Positions 3,179 through 36,598 of a DNA stretch of 64,000 nt are shown here, one piece after another. Source of the stretch: Streptomyces sp. R41 (GTDB taxonomy: Bacteria; Actinomycetota; Actinomycetes; Streptomycetales; Streptomycetaceae); the NCBI RefSeq assembly GCF_041053055.1, contig NZ_CP163443.1, positions 1,302,001 through 1,366,000 of the forward strand. The letters run 5' to 3'. Both the position numbers and the translations under genes were made by a program. Below the pieces are notes generated by a model. The model worked only from the letters and a program-made list of their open reading frames with translations, was not told where the DNA came from and ran no database searches. The stretch's first letter is position 1. Each line of letters opens with the position of its first letter.

Positions 3179-4849
3179 TCAGCGCGCCGGAAGCGTCCGG
3201 GTCTGCTCGATGCGTACGGCGTCCAGGGCCTGCGGGTCGAGACCGAGCAGCCGCAGGATCGTCGGAGCGATCTGCGTGGTACGCACCGCTCCGCCGACGC
3301 GCACGCCGTGCGGGGTGGCGGCGCCGGAGACGACGAGCGGGACGTCGAGGTCGTCGGCGTGGGCACCGCCGTGCTCGGCGATCTTGCCCTTGCCGCCGGT
3401 GTAGACGACGCCGTACTGGGTGATGCCGACCAGGTCGGGCACACGGGGGTCGCCCTGCCGGACGTGGAAGTAACGGGCCGCGCCCGCACCGGCGTACAGG
3501 GTCTTCAGGCCGCTCGCCGTGAAGGACTTGGCCTCACCGCCGACGCCGTTGCCGGTGCCGGTCTGCGCGAGCAGGTACGCCTTGGCGAAGTCGGTGGCGG
3601 CCTTGGAGCGGTCGGTGAGCCAGACGAGCATGGCGTCGTCGTCCACGGCGTGTGCGACCAGGTCACCGGAGCCCGGGTGAGCCGTCTTCCAGGCGGAGTT
3701 GAGGCCGTCGAGCAGGGGACCGTCGTCGATGCGGGTCAGCGCCTTCGGGTCGGTGGGCGACTGCCCGTGCTTGGAGGACAGGATGACCGTGGTGCTGTCG
3801 TCGAGGTTCCGCTTGTGGAGTTCGGCGAGGAACACACCGACCTGCTGGTCGACGAAGGCGAGGTTCTTGGCCAGCAGCGGGCCGGGCACGCCCTTCGCCT
3901 GGTAACCGCCCGCCAGCCCGTCGGAGGTCGGCAGCTTCTGGGCGGTCGAGACGGACTGGAAGTTCATGCCGAAGACGGCCGGGGTTCCGACCTGGTGGGT
4001 GCCGCCGTGGTCGTAGCCGTCGATCTCGTTGAGGACGGCCCGCACCTTGTAGCCGTCGTACTGCTCGGTCGCCGCGTTGTCCTTCGTCCAGTCGTCGCCC
4101 GCCGGGTAACCGACCGCGGCGCTGTTGATCTCGGGGGCGAACAGGTCCTGGATGCCGTCGCCGGAAGGGCCGTTGAGGATGTCGTACGCGGCGTGCTTGT
4201 CGGACCACGCGGTCCGCAGCCCTGCCTTGCGGACCACGTTGAAGACCGTGTTCACCTTCAGGTACGAGTGCGGGTAGACCGGCGTGCAGGTCTTCGGGTC
4301 GACGGGCAGCTTCGACGAGTCGATGAGGCTTGCGGGGTCGCCGGTCATCTTGGGGATGCTGCCGGGCAGGCCGCTCAGACCCTGGCCCGCGTCGAGGGAG
4401 TCCTTGTTCTCGTCGAGGTCCTCGGTGAGGTCGACCTCTGCCCCGGGCTTGGCACCGGCGCAGGTGGTCGTGCCGGCCGGGAGGAGGGCGGAGTTGTACG
4501 TGTCGTCGTAGTAGACGCCCGTGGTGCTCGGGTTGCCGCCGGTGAGCTGGCCGACCATGCCGGGGAACGAGTCGGAGGGGACCGTGGTTCTCGCGTGGGT
4601 GTACTCGACACCGCCGGCGGTGAGCCCGGCGAGCGCCGAGTGGGGGTGGCGGGCGATGTACCAGGCCAGGTCGGACTGGTGCATGCCGTCGACGGACAGC
4701 AGCAGGACGTGCCGGGCCACCGGGTGTGCCTGCATGGGGACATGCGCCGAAGCGGGCGCTGCGGCCGTCGCGGTGAGTGCGCCGACCGCGGCGAGTGCAC
4801 CGGCAGCGGTCATGACGGTGTGAGCAGGGCGGAGTTGACGTCGGGTCAT
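3179..4849 (-). CDS. Secreted type I phosphodiesterase/nucleotide pyrophosphatase (alkaline-phosphatase superfamily)
   Basis: 556 residues. The signal peptide (MTRRQLRPAHTVMTAAGALAAVG..., cleavage near residue 35 at ASA-H) is followed by the metal-binding strand LLLSVDGMH (D54). The PSDSFPG segment takes the place of the family's nucleophile loop; the likely nucleophile is S94 instead of the usual Thr. Later metal ligands appear in ILSSKHGQSP and AEHGGAHADDLDVPLV. The family hydrolyses phosphodiester or pyrophosphate bonds in nucleotides or phosphonates outside the cell. The ATG at 4849 has AGGAGAACCCC in front. It is transcribed alone, in the same direction as the DUF1996 gene upstream but with a terminator between them. 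Confidence 0.88.
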   Translation of the reverse strand: MTRRQLRPAHTVMTAAGALAAVGALTATAAAPASAHVPMQAHPVARHVLLLSVDGMHQSDLAWYIARHPHSALAGLTAGGVEYTHARTTVPSDSFPGMVGQLTGGNPSTTGVYYDDTYNSALLPAGTTTCAGAKPGAEVDLTEDLDENKDSLDAGQGLSGLPGSIPKMTGDPASLIDSSKLPVDPKTCTPVYPHSYLKVNTVFNVVRKAGLRTAWSDKHAAYDILNGPSGDGIQDLFAPEINSAAVGYPAGDDWTKDNAATEQYDGYKVRAVLNEIDGYDHGGTHQVGTPAVFGMNFQSVSTAQKLPTSDGLAGGYQAKGVPGPLLAKNLAFVDQQVGVFLAELHKRNLDDSTTVILSSKHGQSPTDPKALTRIDDGPLLDGLNSAWKTAHPGSGDLVAHAVDDDAMLVWLTDRSKAATDFAKAYLLAQTGTGNGVGGEAKSFTASGLKTLYAGAGAARYFHVRQGDPRVPDLVGITQYGVVYTGGKGKIAEHGGAHADDLDVPLVVSGAATPHGVRVGGAVRTTQIAPTILRLLGLDPQALDAVRIEQTRTLPAR

Positions 4850-5025: not shown

Positions 5026-5132
5026 CGGTCGCCGAAGTCAGCCGGCCTGCTTCACATCGGTGGAGCGACGGAGCCGACGCGTCCGTAACACGCCGCCCAC
5101 CGGGCGAGATACGGCGCCGAGCCGCGGCTGCG

Positions 5133-7175
5133 TCAGAAACGTCGCCTGGTACGGAGCAGGAACAGCAGGCCCGCGATCATGAGAACCGTTCCGGCCGCGG
5201 CCGGCCAAAGGGTCGTGCCGGTCTCGGCCAGCCCGCCCGTGACCGCCTGAGGCTCCGTCTGCGACCCGGCTGCGGGAGCGTCCCCGCCCGCGGGCGGCGT
5301 TTGAGTGCCGACTGCCGCCGCGGTGCTGTGCTCGTCGTCCGAGCCGGTCTGCGGCTGAACGGCCGCATCGGTCCCGGCGGCGGAGGGCGACGCGTAGGTC
5401 TTCGGCGTGGCAGAGACCTTGGGAGTGGCCGAAACCTTGGGAGTCGCACCGTTGTGGTCGTCGTCGCCGCCACTGCTACTGCCGCTGCCGCTGCCGCTGC
5501 CGCTGCCCGAAGGTGCCGTGCCCGGCGACGTGGTGGGGGGCTGTGACGACTGCTCGCCACCCGAGTTACCAGGGTCGGTATCGGAGTTACCGGGGTCGGC
5601 CCCGGCGCTGCCGCCGGACGAGGCGTCAGGAGATGGTGACGGCGTGTCCTGCGGCTGCTCACCGGCGCCGGCGCCGCAGTCACGACCGGAGTTGATGCAG
5701 TCCACCACCTGGTTCATCAGGTTCCCGGTCATGACGCTGATGAAGTCGTCGTGGTCGGTGATCGGCTTGTGCAGCTGCTCGGGGAAGCCGTCGACCGCGT
5801 AGGCGTTCTTCACCTGGCCGTCCTGGATGACCGGCTGCGGCACGCTGTACACCAGACGCATCGTCAGTTGCGGGATCGCCTTGAAGCCGCCCGTGCAGTT
5901 GCCGCCCGCGTCGGCGAACGCGACGTGCGTGCGGTGGTTGGCGCTGTCGATGTTCTGGCCGTCCCAGCAGCTCTGGAAGGCGAAGGTCCGGACCACATCG
6001 CTGCCCTGCGGGCAGATCGGGTACTTGTCCGTCAGCTGCACCTTGTTCTCGAAGCCGGTGCAGCTCCAATGCGCGTTGGCGTTGCCCGGGCCGTTGGTGA
6101 AGGCCTTCGCGTCACCGGTGATGATGCGCAGGAACTGCGGCATCGCGACGACCTTGCCGGTCGGGCTGCCGACGTACTCGATCTGCGCCTGCTCGGCCAC
6201 CAGGATCTTGCCGACGTTGCCTTCCTTTCCGCCGCCGTCGGCGTTCTGGTCGAAGTCCTGCGTACCGTCCTGGACACGGACCACCGGCCAGTAGTAGGCC
6301 GACAGGTCGTCCTTGTTCTGACAGCTGGTCCCGCCCTGGAGGAACGTGTCGTTGCTGGAGAACGCGTTGACCTTCTGGTTGCCGACGTAGTCGTGCAGGT
6401 GGTGTGCGCCGTTGGCCACGCCGGGCGCCACGATCACGTTGTCGGTGTTGTGGTTCCCGTTCGCGTTCTCACCGCACAGCGTGGTGAACGTACCCGTCGA
6501 GGCGTCGCGGGTCTTGCCCGGCTTCGCCGGGACGTTCGGCGCGACCTTCGTGATGTCGACGAAATCCGAGGCGACGGGACCGCCGGCGGCCTGACCGCCG
6601 TTGTTCTGTTGGCCGTTGTTCTGTTGACCGCCGCTCTGTTGGCCGTTGTCACTCGGGCCACCGGAGGCGTTCCGCGCCGGGTCGGCCGTCACTGCGGTGC
6701 ACGTCGCAAGGCCGTCGATCGCGCCCGGGGCGGTGCCGCCCACCTGCTGGTAATCGGCCTTGATCCGGCCAATGACGTCGGTCCGCTTGTCCTTGAGCGG
6801 CCCGAGAATCGTGTTCTGGACGTAGTCCGCGTCATTCGCCTGCGCCTGCCGCGTCGCGGCCAGCCGGGTGTACGCCTCGGTGATCTGCTTGTCGAGCGTC
6901 GCCAGCTCCGCGTCCACCTGCGACTTCGCCGCGCTGGGCACGTTGGTCAGTTTCTGGCCGACGTCGGGACAGTCGATCGTGGCCGTTGCCGACGCAGGAA
7001 GCTGGTCGCTTCCGCTCGGGTTCGGCTGCTGGACCGACTCGCCGCCCGAGCCGCTTTCGGTCGCGGAGGCGTAGACGTTCACCGCCACCAGCCCTCCGCC
7101 GCCCAACATCAGCGCGACCGCTGCAAAGGTCGCGCGCCGTGCGCCCGTAGGGCGTCTGCGCGTGCTGCGTCTCAA
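5133..7175 (-). CDS. Wall-anchored DUF1996 protein with LAETG sortase signal
   Basis: 680 residues. An Arg-rich signal peptide ([27 protein letters not shown]) leads to a helical region (about 75-140), an Asn/Gln/Gly-rich stretch (about 175-200), a DUF1996 domain (about 205-465, with conserved segments [22 protein letters not shown] and [13 protein letters not shown]), a long Ser/Pro/Thr linker with [15 protein letters not shown] repeats, then LAETG (649-653), a membrane helix and RTRRRF. LAxTG is the motif used by class E sortases in Streptomyces. DUF1996 has no settled function and is seen in fungal and actinobacterial secreted proteins. The TTG at 7175 was chosen because AGGAG lies 7 nt upstream and the signal peptide then starts at residue 1; a GTG at 7262 in the same frame is the alternative. 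Confidence 0.85.
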
Positions 7176-17211: not shown

Positions 17212-18174
17212 ATGCGCAGAGCCGCCCCCCTCTTAGTGGTCCTCACCTCAGCACTCGCCCTCACGGCGTGCGGGCACCAGGCCGACCCGCCCACATCCTC
17301 CGCGGGGCCCACCTCGTCGGACGACCCGAGGTTCCTGCCGCTGGCCGCGTACGACATGCCCGAAGACGACGGCCGTACGGTCGGCAGGGCCCGGTGGACG
17401 CTCGCCAAGGAGTGCATGGCCCGCCTCGGTTTCGACAGCCTGAAGAACCTCGCCACCGATCCCCAACCCGCCTGGCTCCAACGCCCCTCCGGCACGGGCG
17501 TGCTGACGGCCGTCCTGTACGCCTCGGACGACCTTCGCTACGGCATCCAGGACCCCGAGCAGGCCGCGCGGTACGGCTATCACGCGGCGCAGGCCGAGTA
17601 TCAGCGCCGCTACTCGGAGAAGAAGTGGTCCCTCCCCCAATACCTCGCGCTCACCGGCGAGTTCGTCGGGGACGACCCGAAGACCGTCCACGGCCACCGC
17701 ATCCCGGAACGCGGCTGTCTCGGCGACGCGGACCGCACGATCCACGGGACGAACCGGCAGGACCGGAAGGATCCGGTCCTGGACCTGGAGACCAAGAGCC
17801 TCCAACAGGGCATGCGGGAGCCGGCCTGGAAGAAGGCGGACAAGGCGTGGTCGGCCTTCATGCGGAAAGCGGGCTACCACTACGCCACCCCCAGGGACGC
17901 CGAGATCGGCAGCGACCGCAACCGCCAGGAGCTTCAGGAAGAGCTGACCGGGCGGCAGCACGACCCCGCCGTGCCGTCCGACCTCGAGAAGAAGACCGCG
18001 ACCGCCGACGCCCGCTGCAAGCGGCAGAACGGCTACGTCCGCACGGTGCACGCCATCGACGTTCGCATCCAGAACCAGCTCATCGCCAAGAACCGAACGA
18101 AGCTCGCGGAACAGCGCCGCTGGAACCGCGACGCGGCCCGTAAAGCCCACGACATCCTTGAGGACCGGTCATGA
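17212..18174 (+). CDS. Lipoprotein of unknown function, with a TTA codon
   Basis: 320 residues. The signal peptide MRRAAPLLVVLTSALALTAC ends in a lipobox (LTAC, C20), so the protein should be tethered to the outer face of the membrane. The rest is Arg/Lys/Gln-rich and largely helical, with Trp-rich helices (PAWKKADKAWSAFMRKAGYHY) and a helical C-terminus (IQNQLIAKNRTKLAEQRRWNRDAARKAHDIL). No enzyme motif is seen. Codon 8 is TTA (17233-17235), so translation should depend on the bldA tRNA. At the 3' end an ATGA overlap opens a 48-codon frame that might be a damaged partner gene. Confidence 0.7.
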   Translation: MRRAAPLLVVLTSALALTACGHQADPPTSSAGPTSSDDPRFLPLAAYDMPEDDGRTVGRARWTLAKECMARLGFDSLKNLATDPQPAWLQRPSGTGVLTAVLYASDDLRYGIQDPEQAARYGYHAAQAEYQRRYSEKKWSLPQYLALTGEFVGDDPKTVHGHRIPERGCLGDADRTIHGTNRQDRKDPVLDLETKSLQQGMREPAWKKADKAWSAFMRKAGYHYATPRDAEIGSDRNRQELQEELTGRQHDPAVPSDLEKKTATADARCKRQNGYVRTVHAIDVRIQNQLIAKNRTKLAEQRRWNRDAARKAHDILEDRS

Positions 18175-18566
18175 GGACCGGCCTGCCGCAACCCGCGCTC
18201 GTCGGCGTCCCGGGCCTGACCTTGTGCGGAGCGCGACGGCTGGTCCGGCGGTGCGGCGGTGTCGTCGAGGACGCCACAAGGCGACCCACTGGCCTTGAGA
18301 AGGCTCGCCGCTCCTGATCCGCCCTTCCAGCCGTCGCCGGCATCGCTGTGGCGTGGCCTGGGACTCCCCCTTTCGGGAGCTCTGGTCCGCAAGCTCAACT
18401 CGTGTCGACAACGGCAGCACCCGGCAGCCGCTTTCAGTCAGCGGCAGACGGGGCAACGAGCCATTTCAACTGGCGGTGAGCCTGAGCAGGAAATTGCAGC
18501 CGCTCTTCACTGCTCCAGCCAGTCTTCTCTCTTGCCTGACCTCCCCCACCGACCTAGCCTTACTTT
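18175..18566. other. Intergenic stretch with a possible decayed gene start
   Basis: 392 bp. The lipoprotein stop overlaps an ATG at 18171 (ATGA) that opens MRTGLPQPALVGVPGLTLCGA and runs 48 codons to a TGA near 18317. It looks vaguely like a damaged signal peptide, but no family can be named. The last 60 bp probably hold the MFS gene's promoter: TAGCCT lies about 7 nt before the GTG, fitting a leaderless mRNA. Confidence 0.35.
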
Positions 18567-19766
18567 GTGCCGCTAATAAACAAAACCCGATCGCACAGCG
18601 TCGTGCCGGGCAACGACCTCACCCGACTCCGCATCGCCCTCACCGTCTTCTTCGCCCTCGACGGCTTCATCTTCGCCGGATGGGTCGTCCGGATCCCGGC
18701 CATCAAGGAACAGACCGGTGCCTCCGCCAGCGCACTGGGGCTCGCCCTCCTCGGCGTCTCCGCCGGTGCGGTGATCACGATGACGCTCACCGGACGCCTG
18801 TGCCGCCGCTTCGGCAGCCACCCGGTGACGGTGGCCTGCGGCGTACTGCTCTCACTGAGCGTCGCCCTGCCCCCGCTGACCCACTCGGCGCTCGCCCTGG
18901 GACTCGTCCTGCTGATCTTCGGAGCCGCATACGGCGGGATAAATGTCGCCTTCAACAGCGCCGCCGTGGACCTGGTGGCCGCACTGCGGCGGCCGATCAT
19001 GCCCAGTTTCCACGGCGCCTTCAGCCTGGGCGGCATGATCGGCGCCGGGCTGGGCGGGCTGGTCGCGGGGTCCCTGTCCCCGACCCGCCATCTGCTCGGC
19101 CTCAGCCTGATCGGGCTGCTGGTGACCGCCGTCACCGGACGTGCCCTGCTGCGGCACGAGCCCCCGGCTCCGCCGGATCGAATGCCGCAGGAGGAGCGCG
19201 TCCCGCGTCGCCTGGACGCCCGCACCCGCGGACTGGTCGCCGTCTTCGGCCTGATCGCCCTCTGCACGGCGTACGGCGAAGGAGCCCTGGCCGACTGGGG
19301 CGCGCTGCACCTGGAGCAGGATCTGAAGGCCCACCCGGGCATCGCGGCCGCCGGCTACTCGTGCTTCGCCCTCGCCATGACCATCGGCCGACTCACCGGA
19401 ACGACGCTCCTGGAACGCCTCGGGCGGACCCGGACCGTGGTGGCGGGCGGCACCACGGCCGCAGCCGGAATGCTGCTCGGTGCTCTCGCCCCCTCGGTGT
19501 GGGCGGCCCTGCTCGGCTTCGCGATCACGGGCCTCGGGCTGGCCAACATCTTCCCGGTCGCCGTCGAACGCGCCGGCGCACTCGCCGGCCCCAGCGGTGT
19601 CGCGACCGCGTCCACCCTCGGCTACGGCGGCATGCTCCTCGGACCGCCCGCCATCGGGTTCATGGCGGACTGGTTCTCCCTGCCCGCCGCCCTCACCAGC
19701 GTCGCGGCGCTGGCGGCGGTCGCCGCCGTCATCGGATACGGGACACGGCGGGCAACGGCGAGCTGA
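18567..19766 (+). CDS. MFS transporter (FucP/YbjJ-like)
   Basis: 399 residues with twelve hydrophobic segments. Family features are the N-terminal FFALDGFIFAGWVVRIPAIKEQTGASAS, the GRLCRRFG loop between helices 2 and 3, and the helix NVAFNSAAVDLVAALRRPIMPSFHGAFSLGGMIGAG, the pattern of the YbjJ-type sugar/drug exporters. The substrate is unknown. The GTG at 18567 has no Shine-Dalgarno; TAGCCT just upstream suggests a leaderless transcript. It appears to be a single-gene unit. Confidence 0.85.
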   Translation: MPLINKTRSHSVVPGNDLTRLRIALTVFFALDGFIFAGWVVRIPAIKEQTGASASALGLALLGVSAGAVITMTLTGRLCRRFGSHPVTVACGVLLSLSVALPPLTHSALALGLVLLIFGAAYGGINVAFNSAAVDLVAALRRPIMPSFHGAFSLGGMIGAGLGGLVAGSLSPTRHLLGLSLIGLLVTAVTGRALLRHEPPAPPDRMPQEERVPRRLDARTRGLVAVFGLIALCTAYGEGALADWGALHLEQDLKAHPGIAAAGYSCFALAMTIGRLTGTTLLERLGRTRTVVAGGTTAAAGMLLGALAPSVWAALLGFAITGLGLANIFPVAVERAGALAGPSGVATASTLGYGGMLLGPPAIGFMADWFSLPAALTSVAALAAVAAVIGYGTRRATAS

Positions 19767-30699: not shown

Positions 30700-30785
30700 G
30701 GTTCCCCCTCTTCTGTTGGCCCCCTGTGGCTTGCCCGCTCCACCCTGCCACGGAAACCAGGCCCTGATGAGGGCGCCGACAGCGC

Positions 30786-30819
30786 GGCGCCGGTGCCCCG
30801 TCCCGGGGGCACCGGCGCC
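30786..30819 (-). terminator. Hairpin terminator after a small secreted-protein gene
   Basis: A perfect 14-bp stem (30786-30799 with 30806-30819) with a 6-nt loop, just past the stop codon at 30834 on the minus strand. Confidence 0.75.
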
Positions 30820-30833
30820 ATGGTCCGAACCCG

Positions 30834-31028
30834 TCAGCCGTTGCGTCCCGGTGCCTTCTCGTCCACGGCCGGGCTGTCGCTGCCGATCGTGTGATCGACG
30901 GTGCTCAGCGTGTCGTTGACGTTCAGATCGCCGAGGACGTCGCCGTCGACGGCGTGGGACGGGGTGATCGCCGCGACGACGAACCCGGTGGCGAGGGAGG
31001 CGATGGCGAGCATGCTGCGCTTCTTCAT
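30834..31028 (-). CDS. Small secreted protein of unknown function
   Basis: 64 residues. A Sec signal peptide ([25 protein letters not shown]) leaves a mature acidic peptide of about 38 residues ([22 protein letters not shown]...), with no Cys. Many Streptomyces genomes encode such short exported peptides; no function can be given. The start is an ATG with a weak ribosome site (GGGC). A terminator hairpin follows closely, which supports a real transcript. Confidence 0.65.
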
Positions 31029-31150
31029 GCCCGGTTCAACTACGGACCCGACGACGAGTCACGGGTAGGTCACGCAACTTCATCTCGCCCTCATCGGACA
31101 CATCCACAGCACTACCGTCATCCCACTCGAAACATCCCAGGGGGGACGAG

Positions 31151-31612
31151 ATGACCAATCCGTACACCACACCACAGGCCCCAACCACCCGCACCGCTCC
31201 GGGCTGGGCCCGCAAGCGCTACGTCCTGCCCGCGCTCGCCGTGACCCTCTTCATCGGTGTCGGCATAGGCGCGAGTGGCGGGAACAAGACCGAGAACGCC
31301 GCGGCGAAGCCCCGCCCGACCGTCACCGCCACAGTCACGGCGGAGGCCACGGCCACCCGGACCGCGATGGAGACGGTCACGGCGACGCCCTCCGCCACCG
31401 TGACCGTCCGCACGACGAAGACCGTACGGGCGACCGTCACCGCGCAGCCCGCCGCGGGCGGTGGCGGCACCGACGACAACAGCGGCGGGGGCACCGTGTA
31501 CTACGAGAACTGCGACGCCGCGCGTGCGGCGGGGGCCGCGCCGGTACGCGTGGGAGACCCCGGCTACGGCCGGCACCTCGACCGGGACGGGGACGGCGTC
31601 GGGTGCGAGTGA
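31151..31612 (+). CDS. Membrane-anchored protein with excalibur calcium-binding domain
   Basis: 153 residues. A short cytoplasmic start precedes one membrane helix (YVLPALAVTLFIGVGIGAS), a Thr/Val/Ala-rich extracellular stalk (about 50-105, with repeated TVTA/ATRT units), a Gly-rich joint, and a C-terminal excalibur domain (YYENCDAARAAGAAPVRVGD ending RDGDGVGCE) with the D-x-D-x-D-G-x-x-C calcium loop. These domains occur on wall-associated nucleases and on isolated surface proteins. The ATG at 31151 has GGGGGGACGAG upstream. Confidence 0.88.
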   Translation: MTNPYTTPQAPTTRTAPGWARKRYVLPALAVTLFIGVGIGASGGNKTENAAAKPRPTVTATVTAEATATRTAMETVTATPSATVTVRTTKTVRATVTAQPAAGGGGTDDNSGGGTVYYENCDAARAAGAAPVRVGDPGYGRHLDRDGDGVGCE

Positions 31613-31628
31613 GGGCGCATCAGCCGGC

Positions 31629-32084
31629 TCAGTCGAGGGTGAAGGGGTCCCTGGACAGCGACTGCCTCTGGTCGGAGAAAAGCCCTTCCGGCGGCGGCGC
31701 GATCGGCAGCGGCTCGTGGTCCTGGTGACCGTCGGCGCAGCGCGCGAACGGCCCTGTGACAGGGTCCATCAGAGCACGCACATGCGGGTCGACGTGGTGG
31801 AGCCACCAGTTCGACATCCCCAGGGGACCGTCCCAGCGCAACGCCTCCCAGGCACGCCAGACACAGTCCAGCCGAGAGAGCGCCTCGGCGTGGCGAAACC
31901 ATTCCGGGCACCATACGCGCCCGGAGTCAGGGGTGGGACTCGGAATGAAATAGACGAACCGGTCGGCTACGAATTCGCTGACGTTCGGATACCACAGTTC
32001 CGCCGGGCGGGCGGCGCTCTCCTCGTCCCTCCTGATGTCCTCGGCCGACTCGCCCCGCTCCTCGTCATGGAGTGGTGATGTCAT
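31629..32084 (-). CDS. DUF4913 domain protein, last gene of the Trypco2/protease-STAND operon
   Basis: 151 residues. The core from LWYPNVSEFVADRFVYF through VWCPEWFRHAEALSRLDCVW and RAWEALRWDGPLGMSNWWLH to HHVDPHVRALMDPVTGPFARC is the DUF4913 pattern, rich in Trp and with conserved His/Cys. DUF4913 has no assigned function; in actinobacteria it is often encoded on plasmids and integrative elements. Here the ATG (32084) lies only 4 nt after the stop of the 1323-residue protease/NTPase gene, and that gene's last codons supply the ribosome site (AGAGGAGC). It is therefore translated from the same operon and may be its third component. Confidence 0.82.
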   Translation of the reverse strand: MTSPLHDEERGESAEDIRRDEESAARPAELWYPNVSEFVADRFVYFIPSPTPDSGRVWCPEWFRHAEALSRLDCVWRAWEALRWDGPLGMSNWWLHHVDPHVRALMDPVTGPFARCADGHQDHEPLPIAPPPEGLFSDQRQSLSRDPFTLD

Positions 32085-32088
32085 GGCG

Positions 32089-35000
32089 TCATGCTCCTCT
32101 TCGCAGCCGTACGTCAGTGGCCTCGCTGTGAAGGCCGATGCGGTCCAGAACCCTCGCGAGCCGGGTGACGGCCCATCTCAGGTCGGCCTGCCTGCTCGGG
32201 TCCCGGTCCACCAGACCCCGGTAGAGGCGGACGGCCCGTCGCGCCGGTGCCACCGCCCGGGCGGCCCGCCGCACGTCGTGTCGGCCGCACAGGCTCAGCG
32301 TCCCGGCCAGTCGGGAAAGGAGCCATGCGGTCCGGTCCGGTCGTTCGTCGGAGCGCCCGGCCAGCTCCTGGCAGACCTCCTCCGCCTCGAGCGCGGTGAG
32401 CCAGGCCGCGACCTCCTCCCCTGCCATGGCCCGCCCGTCGGCCAGCCGCAGGAGAGCGCGGCACAGGGGCTGCTCGTGGCCGGCCCGGTCCGCGGTGATC
32501 AATTGGCGTCGAAGGCGCACCTCGTGCTCCGAGATACGGACGGAGTCGCGGAAGCGGTTCGTCCTCAGCAGCGCACGGCTCAGCTCCGCACAGGTGTTGG
32601 CCAGGTCCACCTCATGTCTCGCGTCCCCGGCCGACAGCTCCACGCGCAGCTCATACGCCTCACTCAGTACGGGAACCGCCCGGTCGGCCGTAGCCCAGAA
32701 CATCCCGTAGCTGGTGCCGAGGTCATGCAGGCAGAAGGCCAGCCCCTGGCGTCCCTCCGCGTCGACGTGGGACAGCCGGCGGTAGAGGGGCAGCGCCTGG
32801 CGGAGCAGGATGCGCACCGCGACGTGCCGGTCGTGCTTCCAGTAGAGGTCGGAGCCGTCGTGGAGGCTGGTGGCATACCCCTGCGTGTAGAGGCTGGGGG
32901 CGTATTCACTGAGGCGGCGCCCGATGGCAAGGGCCTGGTTCTGGACGGCGAGCGCGTCCGCTGGGCGGCCCAGGACGTCGTAGGAGCGGGCGAGCTTGAG
33001 AGCGATTCCGGACTGCGCCTCCAGGTTGCTCGCGCTGAGCGGCAGTCTGGCGCGTGCGCAGATCTCGAGGGCCTCCTTGAATCGCTCCACCGCCGCCTGG
33101 TGGTCGCCGGCACCCGCGTGGAAGGTGGCGAGCATGCTGACCGAATGGGCCCAGCCGGGCTCGATGATCCCGTACGGATCGCGTGCCAGAGCCCGCCGAT
33201 GCTCGATGGCCTCTCCGATGGTCTCCCGCGCCGCGGCGTAATCCCCCTCGTCGAAGTGCTCACAGGCGAGGTTGTGCAGCAGCTGCGCCAAGGTGGAGCG
33301 GTGGACTGCGGGAAGATCCCCGGCCAGCGGGCGCAGCAGTTCGATCGCCTCCCGTTCCAGCGCCATGGACTCGCCGCCCGGCCGTGAGGCGGCGTTGTAG
33401 TCGACCGCCAGGCCCATCAGAGCGCGCGCGAGGTCGGCGGAATAGGCGTCGCGGTTCTCTCGCGCCAACTGGCGGGAGGTCTCGACCGCCTCCTCGCTCA
33501 GAGACAACGACTCCGTATTACGCTGCAGGCGCCAGAGGTTCGCACCTCGTGCCACCAGCGCCTTGGGGAGCAGGAGCGGGTCCAGATCGGGGTGTCCGGC
33601 CACCAGTACGCGGGCGCGCCGGACGGCCTCGTCCGTGTGGTCGTCGGACCTGGCGATCTGGTCGAAGGGAATCGAGCTCGGGTCGAGCTGCCAGACCACG
33701 TGCGACTGGTTGATGAGTGCCCGCACCAGGCCGCTCTCGCGCTTCTCCCCCTCCTCGCCGCCCTCAGCAGTCAGCGTGCGGAAGAGGCTCAGCGCCTGAT
33801 CGCCGACGCGGTGCGCCTCCATCAGACATCCGGTCATGCGCAAGGCGTGCGACAGCGCCAGCAGCGAGTCGGCCCGGTCCGCGCGGTGCGTCATCGCTCC
33901 GTCGTCCGCCAGCCCCTCGCGGATCGCCGCCGCGTCACCCGCCGCCTGCCGGGCGTCCTCCCAGTCGCCGACCGCCAGGTGCCGCTCGGCCAGGTTGTGC
34001 AGCGCCCACGCGCGGTCGCGGAGCGACTGTGGGTCGTCGCCCTTGGCGCGGCACAGCCCGCTCAGTTCGCGAGCGACGTCGAGCGCGTACTCGCGCAGCA
34101 CATGGGACTGGTCCGGCAGTGTGTCGGAGTGTGCGCGCAGCACGGTGGCGGTCAACGGCGCGTCGGCGGGCACGGAGCGCAGCACCTCGCGCAGCCGGTC
34201 GATGACGATGTGCGCCCAGCGCGTGCGGCCCTCGTTGGCGTGGGCCACGGCAGACCGGGCCAGCACGGTGAGGGTCTGCACGCGCTGGTGGTCCGGGGCC
34301 CGGGCGAACAGTCTCCCCAGCAGTCCCGCGTCGCGGATGATCTGCTCGGAGGCGTGGTACTCCGCCAGCCGGTCCGGCTCCAGCTGGCCCCAGTAGCGGT
34401 CCTCGGACGACGGATACAGGTCACGCAGCCAGTCGGCGATCTCCGAGATGAGCCATGGCGGTTCATCGGGCAGCAGCCGGGCGATGGTCCCCCGAGCCTC
34501 CCGCTCCTCCTGTGCGGGACACAGCACGGCCGCCGCCACCGCCTGCGCGAGCAGGTTCTTCTCCCGCCGCCCCATGCCCCGCTCGTCGGCGGTGTCCTGC
34601 CAGTACCTCTTCTCGTGGCCCAGGAGCTCGGCCTCCAGCGCGCCGTCCCCGGTCGACCCCTTGTCTCCCTTGGGGGTTCGAGCGCGGCGCAGCAGCGTGA
34701 CCAGGGCCGCCATCTGCACGGCCAGCGCTGTCTCAGCCCCCGGGCCCGCGCCGGGGCGGCGGGCGACCGGGACGGCGTCCGCGAGCCCGGGCCAGTCGAG
34801 GTCCGGCTCGCCGGTCGCCTCCGCCAGGCGGCGGGAGAAGTCCCGGGCCGCCGCCCGGAACGCATGCTCCCGGTCCGCGACGCCGGGGCTGAGCGCGTGC
34901 AGCCTGGTCTCGCGGAGGGCGCCGGTCGCTCTGTCCTGCCACGAGCCCAGTGAACGGGCAAGCAGCAGCAGGCGTACCGGATGTCCGGCCTGCTCGGTGT

Positions 35001-36060
35001 GCTCCCGCAGCTTCCTGACCAGGTCGGGCCGGGTCTCGGCGTAGTCGACGACCAACAGCAGCGGGTGCTGGACGGCGCGCAGCACGTGCAGGTCGCCCGG
35101 CTCGCGGGCCACCTGACCGGCGACCCAGCCGAGGCCCCGCAGCCGCGCCATCAGCTGCCGTGCCAGCCGGGTCTTGCCCTGCCCGCCCGGGGCGGTGAGT
35201 ACGCGGACAGCGGGCAGGCCGTCCGGCTCCGTCCGGCACCACCGCTCCAGGTCGTCGAGCGTGTCCTGTCTGCCGTGGAACGACACCACCTCGGCGTCGG
35301 CCCGCAGCAGCATGGTGGGGGAGGACACCTCCCGTTTGGGCGGCGCCGGCTCCAACAGGTGGGCGAGCTCGGCCGGTTCGGGCTGAGGGTCCACTGAGGT
35401 CGCCTCGCGGACCACCGCCCGGAAGTCGTCACAGGCCAGCAGGTCCTCGCTGCGGGTGTACGTCAGCCGCGTGCCCTGCCTTGGCCGACGGTCCGCTCGC
35501 ACGACGCCGATCAGGAGCTTCTCACCGGAAAGGAAGACGGCCGCGCCCGACATCCCGGACCACGGGGTGGACTTCGCGGCGGTCTCCTCGTCGAGCCCCG
35601 CGGTGTCGATCTCCAGCAGTCCGGTGGTGTCGTGGATCTCGAAGGGCACGCCACCGTGCGGCCTGATCCGGCCGATCAGCAACTCCCTGTTCCGGCCGGC
35701 ATTCGTTTTCTGCTGCCGCGGGAATCCCAAAGCGGCGACCTGAATTTCGGACCCGCCCGTCACGCACCGGCCCCAGCGCTGCGGGCGGCGGCCCAGGGCG
35801 CCGCGCAGCGAGTCGGGCGTCGGCCATTCCGGGTCGTCGGCCGGGATCTCCAACAGGGCTGCGTCCACGGTGTCGTCATACCGTCGCCACCTGACCTTCG
35901 CGGGGGACCGCCCAGCCGACTCCGGGAGGGACACGGTGATCCCCCCTTGCACGTTCAGCGGTGGCAGCAGATGCGCGGCGGTCAGGACGAGCCGCGGCGC
36001 GATCAGATAGCCGCTGCCGAAGCTTGCGGCGCGGACCTGGACTACCTGCTGTGTCTGCAT
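32089..36060 (-). CDS. Trypsin-like protease - STAND NTPase - TPR protein (probable conflict/defence system)
   Basis: 1323 residues, no signal peptide, so cytoplasmic. Residues 1-215 form a trypsin-like domain with a full triad: H30 (LVLTAAH), D66 (TVDAALLEI) and S171 (WSGMSGAAVF). Residues about 260-600 form a STAND-type NTPase: FHGRQDTLDDLERW lead-in, Walker A PGGQGKTRLA (G292-T297), Walker B LLLVVDYAE (D339). Residues about 610-1310 are a long array of TPR-like helical repeats (for example ALHNLAERHLAVGDWEDAR and LLHNLACEHFDEGDYAAAR). By analogy to known STAND proteins, the repeats would sense an invader signal, the NTPase would oligomerise, and the protease would act as effector. It lies between the Trypco2-like and DUF4913 genes. 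The ATG at 36060 has CCGGGGGCG upstream. Confidence 0.85.
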   Translation of the reverse strand: MQTQQVVQVRAASFGSGYLIAPRLVLTAAHLLPPLNVQGGITVSLPESAGRSPAKVRWRRYDDTVDAALLEIPADDPEWPTPDSLRGALGRRPQRWGRCVTGGSEIQVAALGFPRQQKTNAGRNRELLIGRIRPHGGVPFEIHDTTGLLEIDTAGLDEETAAKSTPWSGMSGAAVFLSGEKLLIGVVRADRRPRQGTRLTYTRSEDLLACDDFRAVVREATSVDPQPEPAELAHLLEPAPPKREVSSPTMLLRADAEVVSFHGRQDTLDDLERWCRTEPDGLPAVRVLTAPGGQGKTRLARQLMARLRGLGWVAGQVAREPGDLHVLRAVQHPLLLVVDYAETRPDLVRKLREHTEQAGHPVRLLLLARSLGSWQDRATGALRETRLHALSPGVADREHAFRAAARDFSRRLAEATGEPDLDWPGLADAVPVARRPGAGPGAETALAVQMAALVTLLRRARTPKGDKGSTGDGALEAELLGHEKRYWQDTADERGMGRREKNLLAQAVAAAVLCPAQEEREARGTIARLLPDEPPWLISEIADWLRDLYPSSEDRYWGQLEPDRLAEYHASEQIIRDAGLLGRLFARAPDHQRVQTLTVLARSAVAHANEGRTRWAHIVIDRLREVLRSVPADAPLTATVLRAHSDTLPDQSHVLREYALDVARELSGLCRAKGDDPQSLRDRAWALHNLAERHLAVGDWEDARQAAGDAAAIREGLADDGAMTHRADRADSLLALSHALRMTGCLMEAHRVGDQALSLFRTLTAEGGEEGEKRESGLVRALINQSHVVWQLDPSSIPFDQIARSDDHTDEAVRRARVLVAGHPDLDPLLLPKALVARGANLWRLQRNTESLSLSEEAVETSRQLARENRDAYSADLARALMGLAVDYNAASRPGGESMALEREAIELLRPLAGDLPAVHRSTLAQLLHNLACEHFDEGDYAAARETIGEAIEHRRALARDPYGIIEPGWAHSVSMLATFHAGAGDHQAAVERFKEALEICARARLPLSASNLEAQSGIALKLARSYDVLGRPADALAVQNQALAIGRRLSEYAPSLYTQGYATSLHDGSDLYWKHDRHVAVRILLRQALPLYRRLSHVDAEGRQGLAFCLHDLGTSYGMFWATADRAVPVLSEAYELRVELSAGDARHEVDLANTCAELSRALLRTNRFRDSVRISEHEVRLRRQLITADRAGHEQPLCRALLRLADGRAMAGEEVAAWLTALEAEEVCQELAGRSDERPDRTAWLLSRLAGTLSLCGRHDVRRAARAVAPARRAVRLYRGLVDRDPSRQADLRWAVTRLARVLDRIGLHSEATDVRLRRGA

Positions 36061-36084
36061 GAGTACGCCCCCGGGTTACTCGAC

Positions 36085-36393
36085 TTACTCGACGTCGCCC
36101 ACGGCCACGTCCCCGCCGCCGCGGTGCTCCGGGTTCAGGCGTAGGGTCACGCGCTGGGTGGACCGTGCCGAGCGCTCCCGGCGGGCGTCGGCCTCCACGA
36201 CGCCGAACCGCAGCTTCCCGCCGCCGCCCCCTGTCCGCACCAGCTCGATCTCGAACTCCGCGGTGATCTCGCCCAGCACAAAGCGCAGTTGGGAGTCCTG
36301 GCCGCGGCGCTGCGCCTCCGACAGCTGGGTTCGCAGCACCTCGATGGCGTCAGCGAGGTCCAACCAGTCCTCGTCGTCCTCACTGCGCATCAT
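36085..36393 (-). CDS. Trypco2-like (trypsin-co-occurring) domain protein
   Basis: 102 residues. WLDLADAIEVLRTQLSEAQRRGQDSQLRFVLGEITAEFEIELVR followed by a Gly-rich turn, LRFGVVEADARRERSARSTQRVTLRLNP, matches the trypsin-co-occurring domain found next to trypsin-like proteases in bacterial conflict systems. It probably forms a small beta-sheet adaptor that senses or regulates the protease. The ATG at 36393 has GGAAGG upstream; the frame is open further up (MSAHDDVVSEVGRWH) without a ribosome site. The stop is part of a 9-bp tandem repeat (GTCGAGTAA twice, giving two in-frame stops), and the protease gene starts 24 nt later. Confidence 0.78.
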   Translation of the reverse strand: MMRSEDDEDWLDLADAIEVLRTQLSEAQRRGQDSQLRFVLGEITAEFEIELVRTGGGGGKLRFGVVEADARRERSARSTQRVTLRLNPEHRGGGDVAVGDVE

Positions 36394-36598
36394 GTGCCAC
36401 CTTCCGACCTCCGACACCACGTCATCATGCGCAGACATCGTAATGCTCTGAGTCTTCAGGAATTCGCAGAACTGTCGTACGGCGCCCTGGTACTTACGTA
36501 GGGCTGGCGTGGACGCAGCCGTGCACGACCCGCAGATCGGACGACCAGTCATCGGCGTGCCGTGTACCGCTGCCTGGGTAGGCGGTGCAAGTTCAGCC

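Follow-up and report, generated by a model that had tools for sequence, protein, structure and literature searches.

Trypco2 was defined as a neighbor of trypsin-like peptidases, and in the NTP-dependent ternary conflict systems of multicellular actinobacteria its gene adjoins one for a trypsin-like peptidase that is joined to a large regulatory protein (PMC7159879). In AVAST type 1, a trypsin-like protease is joined to a STAND-type NTPase, and a small partner gene encoding an MBL-fold pro-nuclease lies upstream (PMC12799240). The CARD-NLR-like LypABC also holds a trypsin-like peptidase, an NLR-like ATPase, and TPR repeats within one system, as separate proteins with a CARD-like domain (PMC13236601). 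These comparisons, here and below, draw on portions of the three papers. The present study concerns a 64-kb stretch of the Streptomyces sp. R41 genome (64,000 nucleotides; contig NZ_CP163443.1, positions 1,302,001 to 1,366,000), hereafter the window, which contains a three-gene operon resembling each of these systems in part. As in the ternary conflict systems, a Trypco2 gene adjoins the gene for a large regulatory protein with a fused peptidase; PF19631 and PF13365 exceed their cut-offs in the adjacent genes. Unlike those systems, operon loci share three genes only, none of them MoxR, vWA, or VMAP, Pfam gives no vWA or MoxR match for the large protein, and the peptidase shares its chain with a STAND NTPase and TPRs. 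The likeness to AVAST type 1 lies in the protease–NTPase chain and the small upstream partner gene; that partner, however, is Trypco2 and not an MBL-fold pro-nuclease, no such pro-nuclease gene lies beside the protease gene, the Avs1b profile stays below its curated score, and the third gene encodes DUF4913. In contrast to LypABC, the parts are united in one chain, in which Pfam finds no CARD-like domain, although such domains can escape profiles. The Trypco2–core–DUF4913 gene set is not described in the portions consulted of the papers found to mention Trypco2, among them PMC7159879, the text of which contains no occurrence of DUF4913; nor was the name DUF4913 found in the literature searched.

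Organization of the operon

The three genes lie on the minus strand, as do all of the domains described here. The Trypco2 gene (36085..36393; 102 aa; PF19631) is followed after 24 nt by the core gene (32089..36060; 1323 aa), which encodes a trypsin-like peptidase, a STAND-type NTPase, and a TPR array, and after a further 4 nt by the DUF4913 gene (31629..32084; 151 aa; PF16259), in which the domain spans residues 32–131 between conserved N- and C-terminal tails. These coordinates bear out the co-directional arrangement and spacing given in the original prediction. The Trypco2 frame is open from 36552; the start at 36393 is favored over that of the longest frame because relatives are called at 101–107 aa and homologs are mostly 101–112 aa long.

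A Pfam scan of the three proteins, which the original prediction had proposed, placed Trypco2 (84.7 bits; cut-off 24.2), DUF4913 (112.3 bits; cut-off 25), Trypsin_2 (PF13365; 34.1 bits; cut-off 27.6), and the repeats TPR_12, TPR_2, and TPR_10 above their cut-offs. The nSTAND_NTPase5 match of the core fell slightly under (30.7 bits vs. cut-off 34); PF25199 is listed for the core, and likewise for many homologs, in precomputed protein annotation. The Trypsin_2 domain (35503..36018; residues 15–186) includes H30, D66, and S171. The NTPase region (34822..35280; residues 261–413, the span of a weak AAA_16 match) carries Walker A, GGQGKT, at 292–297 and Walker B at D339, and the TPR region (32101..34011; approximately residues 684–1320, lower end estimated) begins with TPR_10 at 684 and has four TPR_12 stretches, the best at 977–1046. 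The catalytic triad, Walker motifs, and TPR array attributed to the core were thus found where the original prediction had placed them. No signal peptide is apparent on reading the core sequence. Among 120 core homologs listed out of 1304 proteins, the core itself counted, S171, K296, and D339 are invariant (120/120), and alignment gaps replace D66 in one sequence and H30 in three (present in 119 and 117, respectively); loss of these residues, which had been named as counting against a defense role, was not seen.

A conserved three-gene unit

Trypco2, core, and DUF4913 form a real conserved unit beyond chance, because other genomes repeat this gene set and its order, as a neighborhood comparison suggested by the original prediction established; a scattering of the three genes, which had been named as refuting the candidate system, was thus not seen. 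The core is followed by DUF4913 in nine further loci (L021–L028 and L032), with Trypco2 also visible in eight; at L028 the contig ends upstream, before the Trypco2 position. The full order is kept in all six other orthologs of 61–72% identity (L021–L026) and in the more distant L027 and L032, while L030, cut before the third-gene position, is excluded from DUF4913 counts. Seven different gene surroundings accommodate these nine loci: L021 and L024 share a site, as do L027 and L028, the flanking genes are otherwise unrelated, and comparison of the flanks found no fourth gene common to the operon loci. At least 20 further core/DUF4913 pairs occur in the protein database on contigs of equal size, a proxy for linkage. 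They extend to Kutzneria and Amycolatopsis, and Trypco2 was also matched in 5 of them. These pairs come from the first 66 of 120 entries of one set, 51 of 115 of another, and part of a third, and are a lower bound because only those entries were compared.

The operon is an accessory, patchily distributed element. At E 1e-100, the only threshold at which matches were counted, the core is present in 10 of 199 genus genomes, 7 of 177 genomes of an order sample, and 2 of 197 of a class sample, these samples overlapping and this genome being counted in each; a core of at least 65% identity occurs in 4 of the 199 genus genomes, this one included. Together with a 64-aa frame and an Excalibur-domain gene (31151–31612, plus strand), both outside the module, the operon fills a slot between a NUDIX gene and a sugar ABC permease gene (30700..36598). 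The Excalibur gene adjoins the operon and was not found in the flanks of other operon loci. In four relatives (L141–L144) the permeases are ~82–83% identical and the surrounding order is kept as far as the stretches reach, with the permease followed by NUDIX and, in three, an M20 peptidase and an oxidoreductase also present. The slot is empty in L144 (93 bp) and holds one other gene each in L141, L142, and L143 (FG-GAP-like, amidase-like, and a small ORF, names read by eye). It therefore carries different cargo in different relatives, and no integrase or tRNA explains it; the 64-kb window has no tRNA gene. PADLOC gave partial matches for just two of ten flanking proteins, up to 33.5 bits, so no defense island is evident.

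Two-gene relatives, with Trypco2 and core and without DUF4913, occur on plasmids. Three of these, on Streptomyces plasmids (L147, L148, and L149), are flanked by Tn3 transposase and recombinase genes and resemble transposon cargo. This genome also has a second Trypco2 gene (L043, C1 999000–1018999; 9923–10198 of that stretch, minus strand; 65.9 bits), which has no core homolog within its stretch and is flanked on either side by a Mutator-type transposase gene copy (5079–6350 and 17989–19260); an MBL-fold hydrolase gene (3496–4341) lies in the same stretch.

DUF4913 as a conjugation-linked family

The original prediction recorded DUF4913 as a third gene of the operon and left it unexplained, although this gene is the strongest clue to the role of the module. 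Its presence is confirmed, and the family is chiefly one of conjugation genes, most members of which neighbor a coupling-protein gene in conjugation systems of actinobacteria. Of 72,556 plasmid records 379 match DUF4913, a search of 50,697 phage records gave no match, and most of the plasmid regions read are conjugation operons; the emphasis on phage in the original prediction is not supported by these counts. In 12 of 13 plasmid regions, chosen for genus spread among the best 60 of the 379 records, DUF4913 comes immediately after the coupling-protein gene, within a run that includes a SCO6880-family gene; in one of these (L052) the coupling protein is unannotated and was located by tblastn. 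The thirteenth (L053), an unannotated megaplasmid stretch, has no T4SS or core match.

Genomic copies give a similar picture. Among 178 class genomes, 47 places exceeded the cut-off and 46 were examined (3 in this genome and 43 fetched), the omitted place being a single match at 25.9 bits. A coupling protein lies within 6 kb of 30 of the 45 copies outside the operon, a count in which L124 and L128 adjoin one same coupling protein and several stretches end at contig ends; none of the 45 stretches contains a core homolog. Where the two genes are adjacent, 16 of 20 cases have an in-frame start that shares a 4-nt overlap with the stop of the coupling-protein gene. Both further copies in this genome lie in T4SS-type loci, one next to a coupling protein and the other 3.8 kb from a coupling protein that Pfam confirms. 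By contrast, tblastn of six proteins (coupling-protein, VirB4-like, VirB6-like, and SCO6880 queries; E 0.01) gave no match in the 64-kb window around the operon copy.

The family is not confined to conjugation, because a coupling protein within reach is missing for 1 of the 13 plasmid regions and for 15 of the 45 genomic copies. Four of these 15 have limited or no room upstream or lie on a short contig, and one has a SCO6880-family gene on the other strand. The surroundings of L117, L118, and L120 look mobile-element-like by eye, whereas L126 and L127 are among those with DUF4913 amid ordinary chromosomal genes. In L117, L118, and L120 a DNA methyltransferase-like gene and membrane genes of conjugation-like appearance accompany DUF4913, and these loci are perhaps integrative elements of another type. 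In L125, L126, and L127, from one genus and a related genome, the gene lies between ordinary chromosomal genes with no conjugation gene in the stretch, and is perhaps a domesticated copy. Pfam recognizes no nuclease, pore, or enzyme domain in DUF4913, and structural comparison gave no clear match.

Divergence of the operon copy

The operon DUF4913 has the same Pfam domain as the conjugation copies. Of the 29 positions conserved among 42 conjugation copies, 24 have the same residue in at least 70% of the 10 operon rows, and the exceptions are positions 49, 63, 67, 74, and 75. The window copy and a copy on a Streptomyces plasmid (H15) share 55.9% identity over 101 residues. Unlike the conjugation copies, it has conserved tails of its own. 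Across the window copy and 82 homologs, the N-terminal motif around IRRDE has I17 in 78 of 83, D20 in 79, and E21 in all 83, and the C-terminal motif GLFxDQR...DPF.L has R140 in 80 and P147 in 82. The termini of 12 plasmid copies look different and variable.

In a DUF4913 tree with all rows kept, close operon copies and homologs alone form a 30-row set (SH-aLRT 95); Streptomyces plasmid copies and distant operon copies fall nearby without resolved placement. In the core tree, the 18 DUF4913-positive rows make up one side of a single branch, equivalent to one change of presence, with SH-aLRT 78, below the 95 mark, and with 8 of the 18 rows assigned by equal-size contigs only. DUF4913 is absent from the fetched stretches around all 15 plasmid-borne cores (14 of 22 plasmid records plus L033, a 110,082-base contig from the genome collection of the same size as a plasmid record). 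This absence may fit a module that plasmid hosts cannot tolerate, and kinship alone could explain it.

Discussion

The part of the original prediction that proposed a candidate defense system stands as far as a three-gene unit of NTP-dependent conflict type is concerned, on the strength of co-occurrence, conserved residues, patchy distribution, and the systems described in the relevant portion of PMC7159879; its phage focus is not supported. The new element of the finding is the link to conjugation, which also makes it testable. Because the third gene resembles a part of the conjugation machinery, plasmid transfer may be what the module senses, in place of viruses or in addition to them. Our tentative preference, to which we give somewhat less than an even chance, is to see in the operon an accessory conflict module of NLR-like type, a protease receptor that has captured a conjugation subunit to serve as its bait or trigger. 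Counting for this interpretation are the conservation of the unit and of its active-site and Walker residues, the position of family members after the coupling protein, the mostly retained conserved positions and the distinct tails of the operon copy, the accessory placement, the single DUF4913 change on the core tree, and the absence of DUF4913 from every plasmid-borne relative examined. Counting against it are the occurrence of the family beyond conjugation, the branch support of 78, the confounding of the plasmid pattern by kinship, and a failed expectation of depletion. Operon-bearing genomes were predicted to be depleted of other DUF4913 copies and are not: such copies occur in 5 of 10 of these genomes and 14 of 45 others (Fisher p 0.29), this genome having two. 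Exclusion of all DUF4913-type elements by the operon is rejected because this prediction failed; a narrower class of elements, or a role on entry only, is possible.

Alternatively, the operon could be an AVAST-like anti-phage module in which the TPR array would sense a phage protein, the STAND NTPase oligomerize, and the protease act, with DUF4913 an auxiliary whose kinship with conjugation is incidental. The general architecture is that of protease-carrying Avs1 (PMC12799240), PADLOC gives a weak Avs1b match, and the existence of two-gene relatives that lack DUF4913 means that the core may be a sensor in its own right. However, the PADLOC match scores 16.7 bits and covers 67 of 1924 profile positions, the NCBIfam Avs1b profile reaches 15.2 bits vs. 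a cut-off of 1500, and DUF4913 is absent from the phage records; this explanation, which we consider rather unlikely, does not account for the conjugation link of DUF4913. A second alternative casts DUF4913, or Trypco2, as an inhibitor or a zymogen-like effector cleaved by the core after sensing. Avs1b and protease-HamA provide the precedent, each cleaving a pro-nuclease encoded beside the protease (PMC12799240), and the operon-specific tails could be cleavage or docking sites. Set against this are the lack of any recognized effector domain or clear structural match in DUF4913 and the conjugation relatives of the protein, which have no core homolog nearby, and we judge such a role unlikely. 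The last alternative is a cellular regulator of development or protein quality control with no part in conflict. STAND-TPR proteins also act as ordinary regulators in Streptomyces, and in two pairs of loci the module occupies a shared site; the patchy distribution, the varying sites, the slot found empty in relatives, and the plasmid-borne two-gene relatives next to Tn3 transposase genes make this the least credible of the explanations, and quite improbable.

If the module is indeed a receptor for conjugation, the core would at rest be held off together with Trypco2, and the DUF4913 subunit would be a captured conjugation component. Its conserved domain might still meet a conjugation partner, be it the coupling protein, the relaxosome, or the transferred DNA, while the operon-specific tails would dock on the receptor. 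A conjugative element active in the cell would then bind or displace DUF4913, the STAND NTPase would switch and oligomerize, and the activated protease would kill or arrest the cell or cut a transfer component. We infer TPR sensing, NTP-driven oligomerization, protease activity, its target, and killing, and base the receptor–bait–protease scheme on analogy with systems that proceed from sensing through oligomerization to a protease, as set out in portions of PMC12799240 and PMC13236601. A more specific form, doubtful as it stands, is an NLR-like immune receptor with a decoy trigger, in which the coupling apparatus of an element would bind a look-alike of its own partner and the protease would fire on plasmid or ICE transfer.

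Plant NLRs are known for integrated decoys. We know of no bacterial NLR-like system demonstrated to use a piece of the conjugative machine as bait, and none appeared in the open-license papers searched. If the proposal is true, NLR-like immunity would be tied to the control of plasmids in antibiotic-producing bacteria, DUF4913 would gain a functional context, and the question of what the receptor senses would become a simple mating assay.
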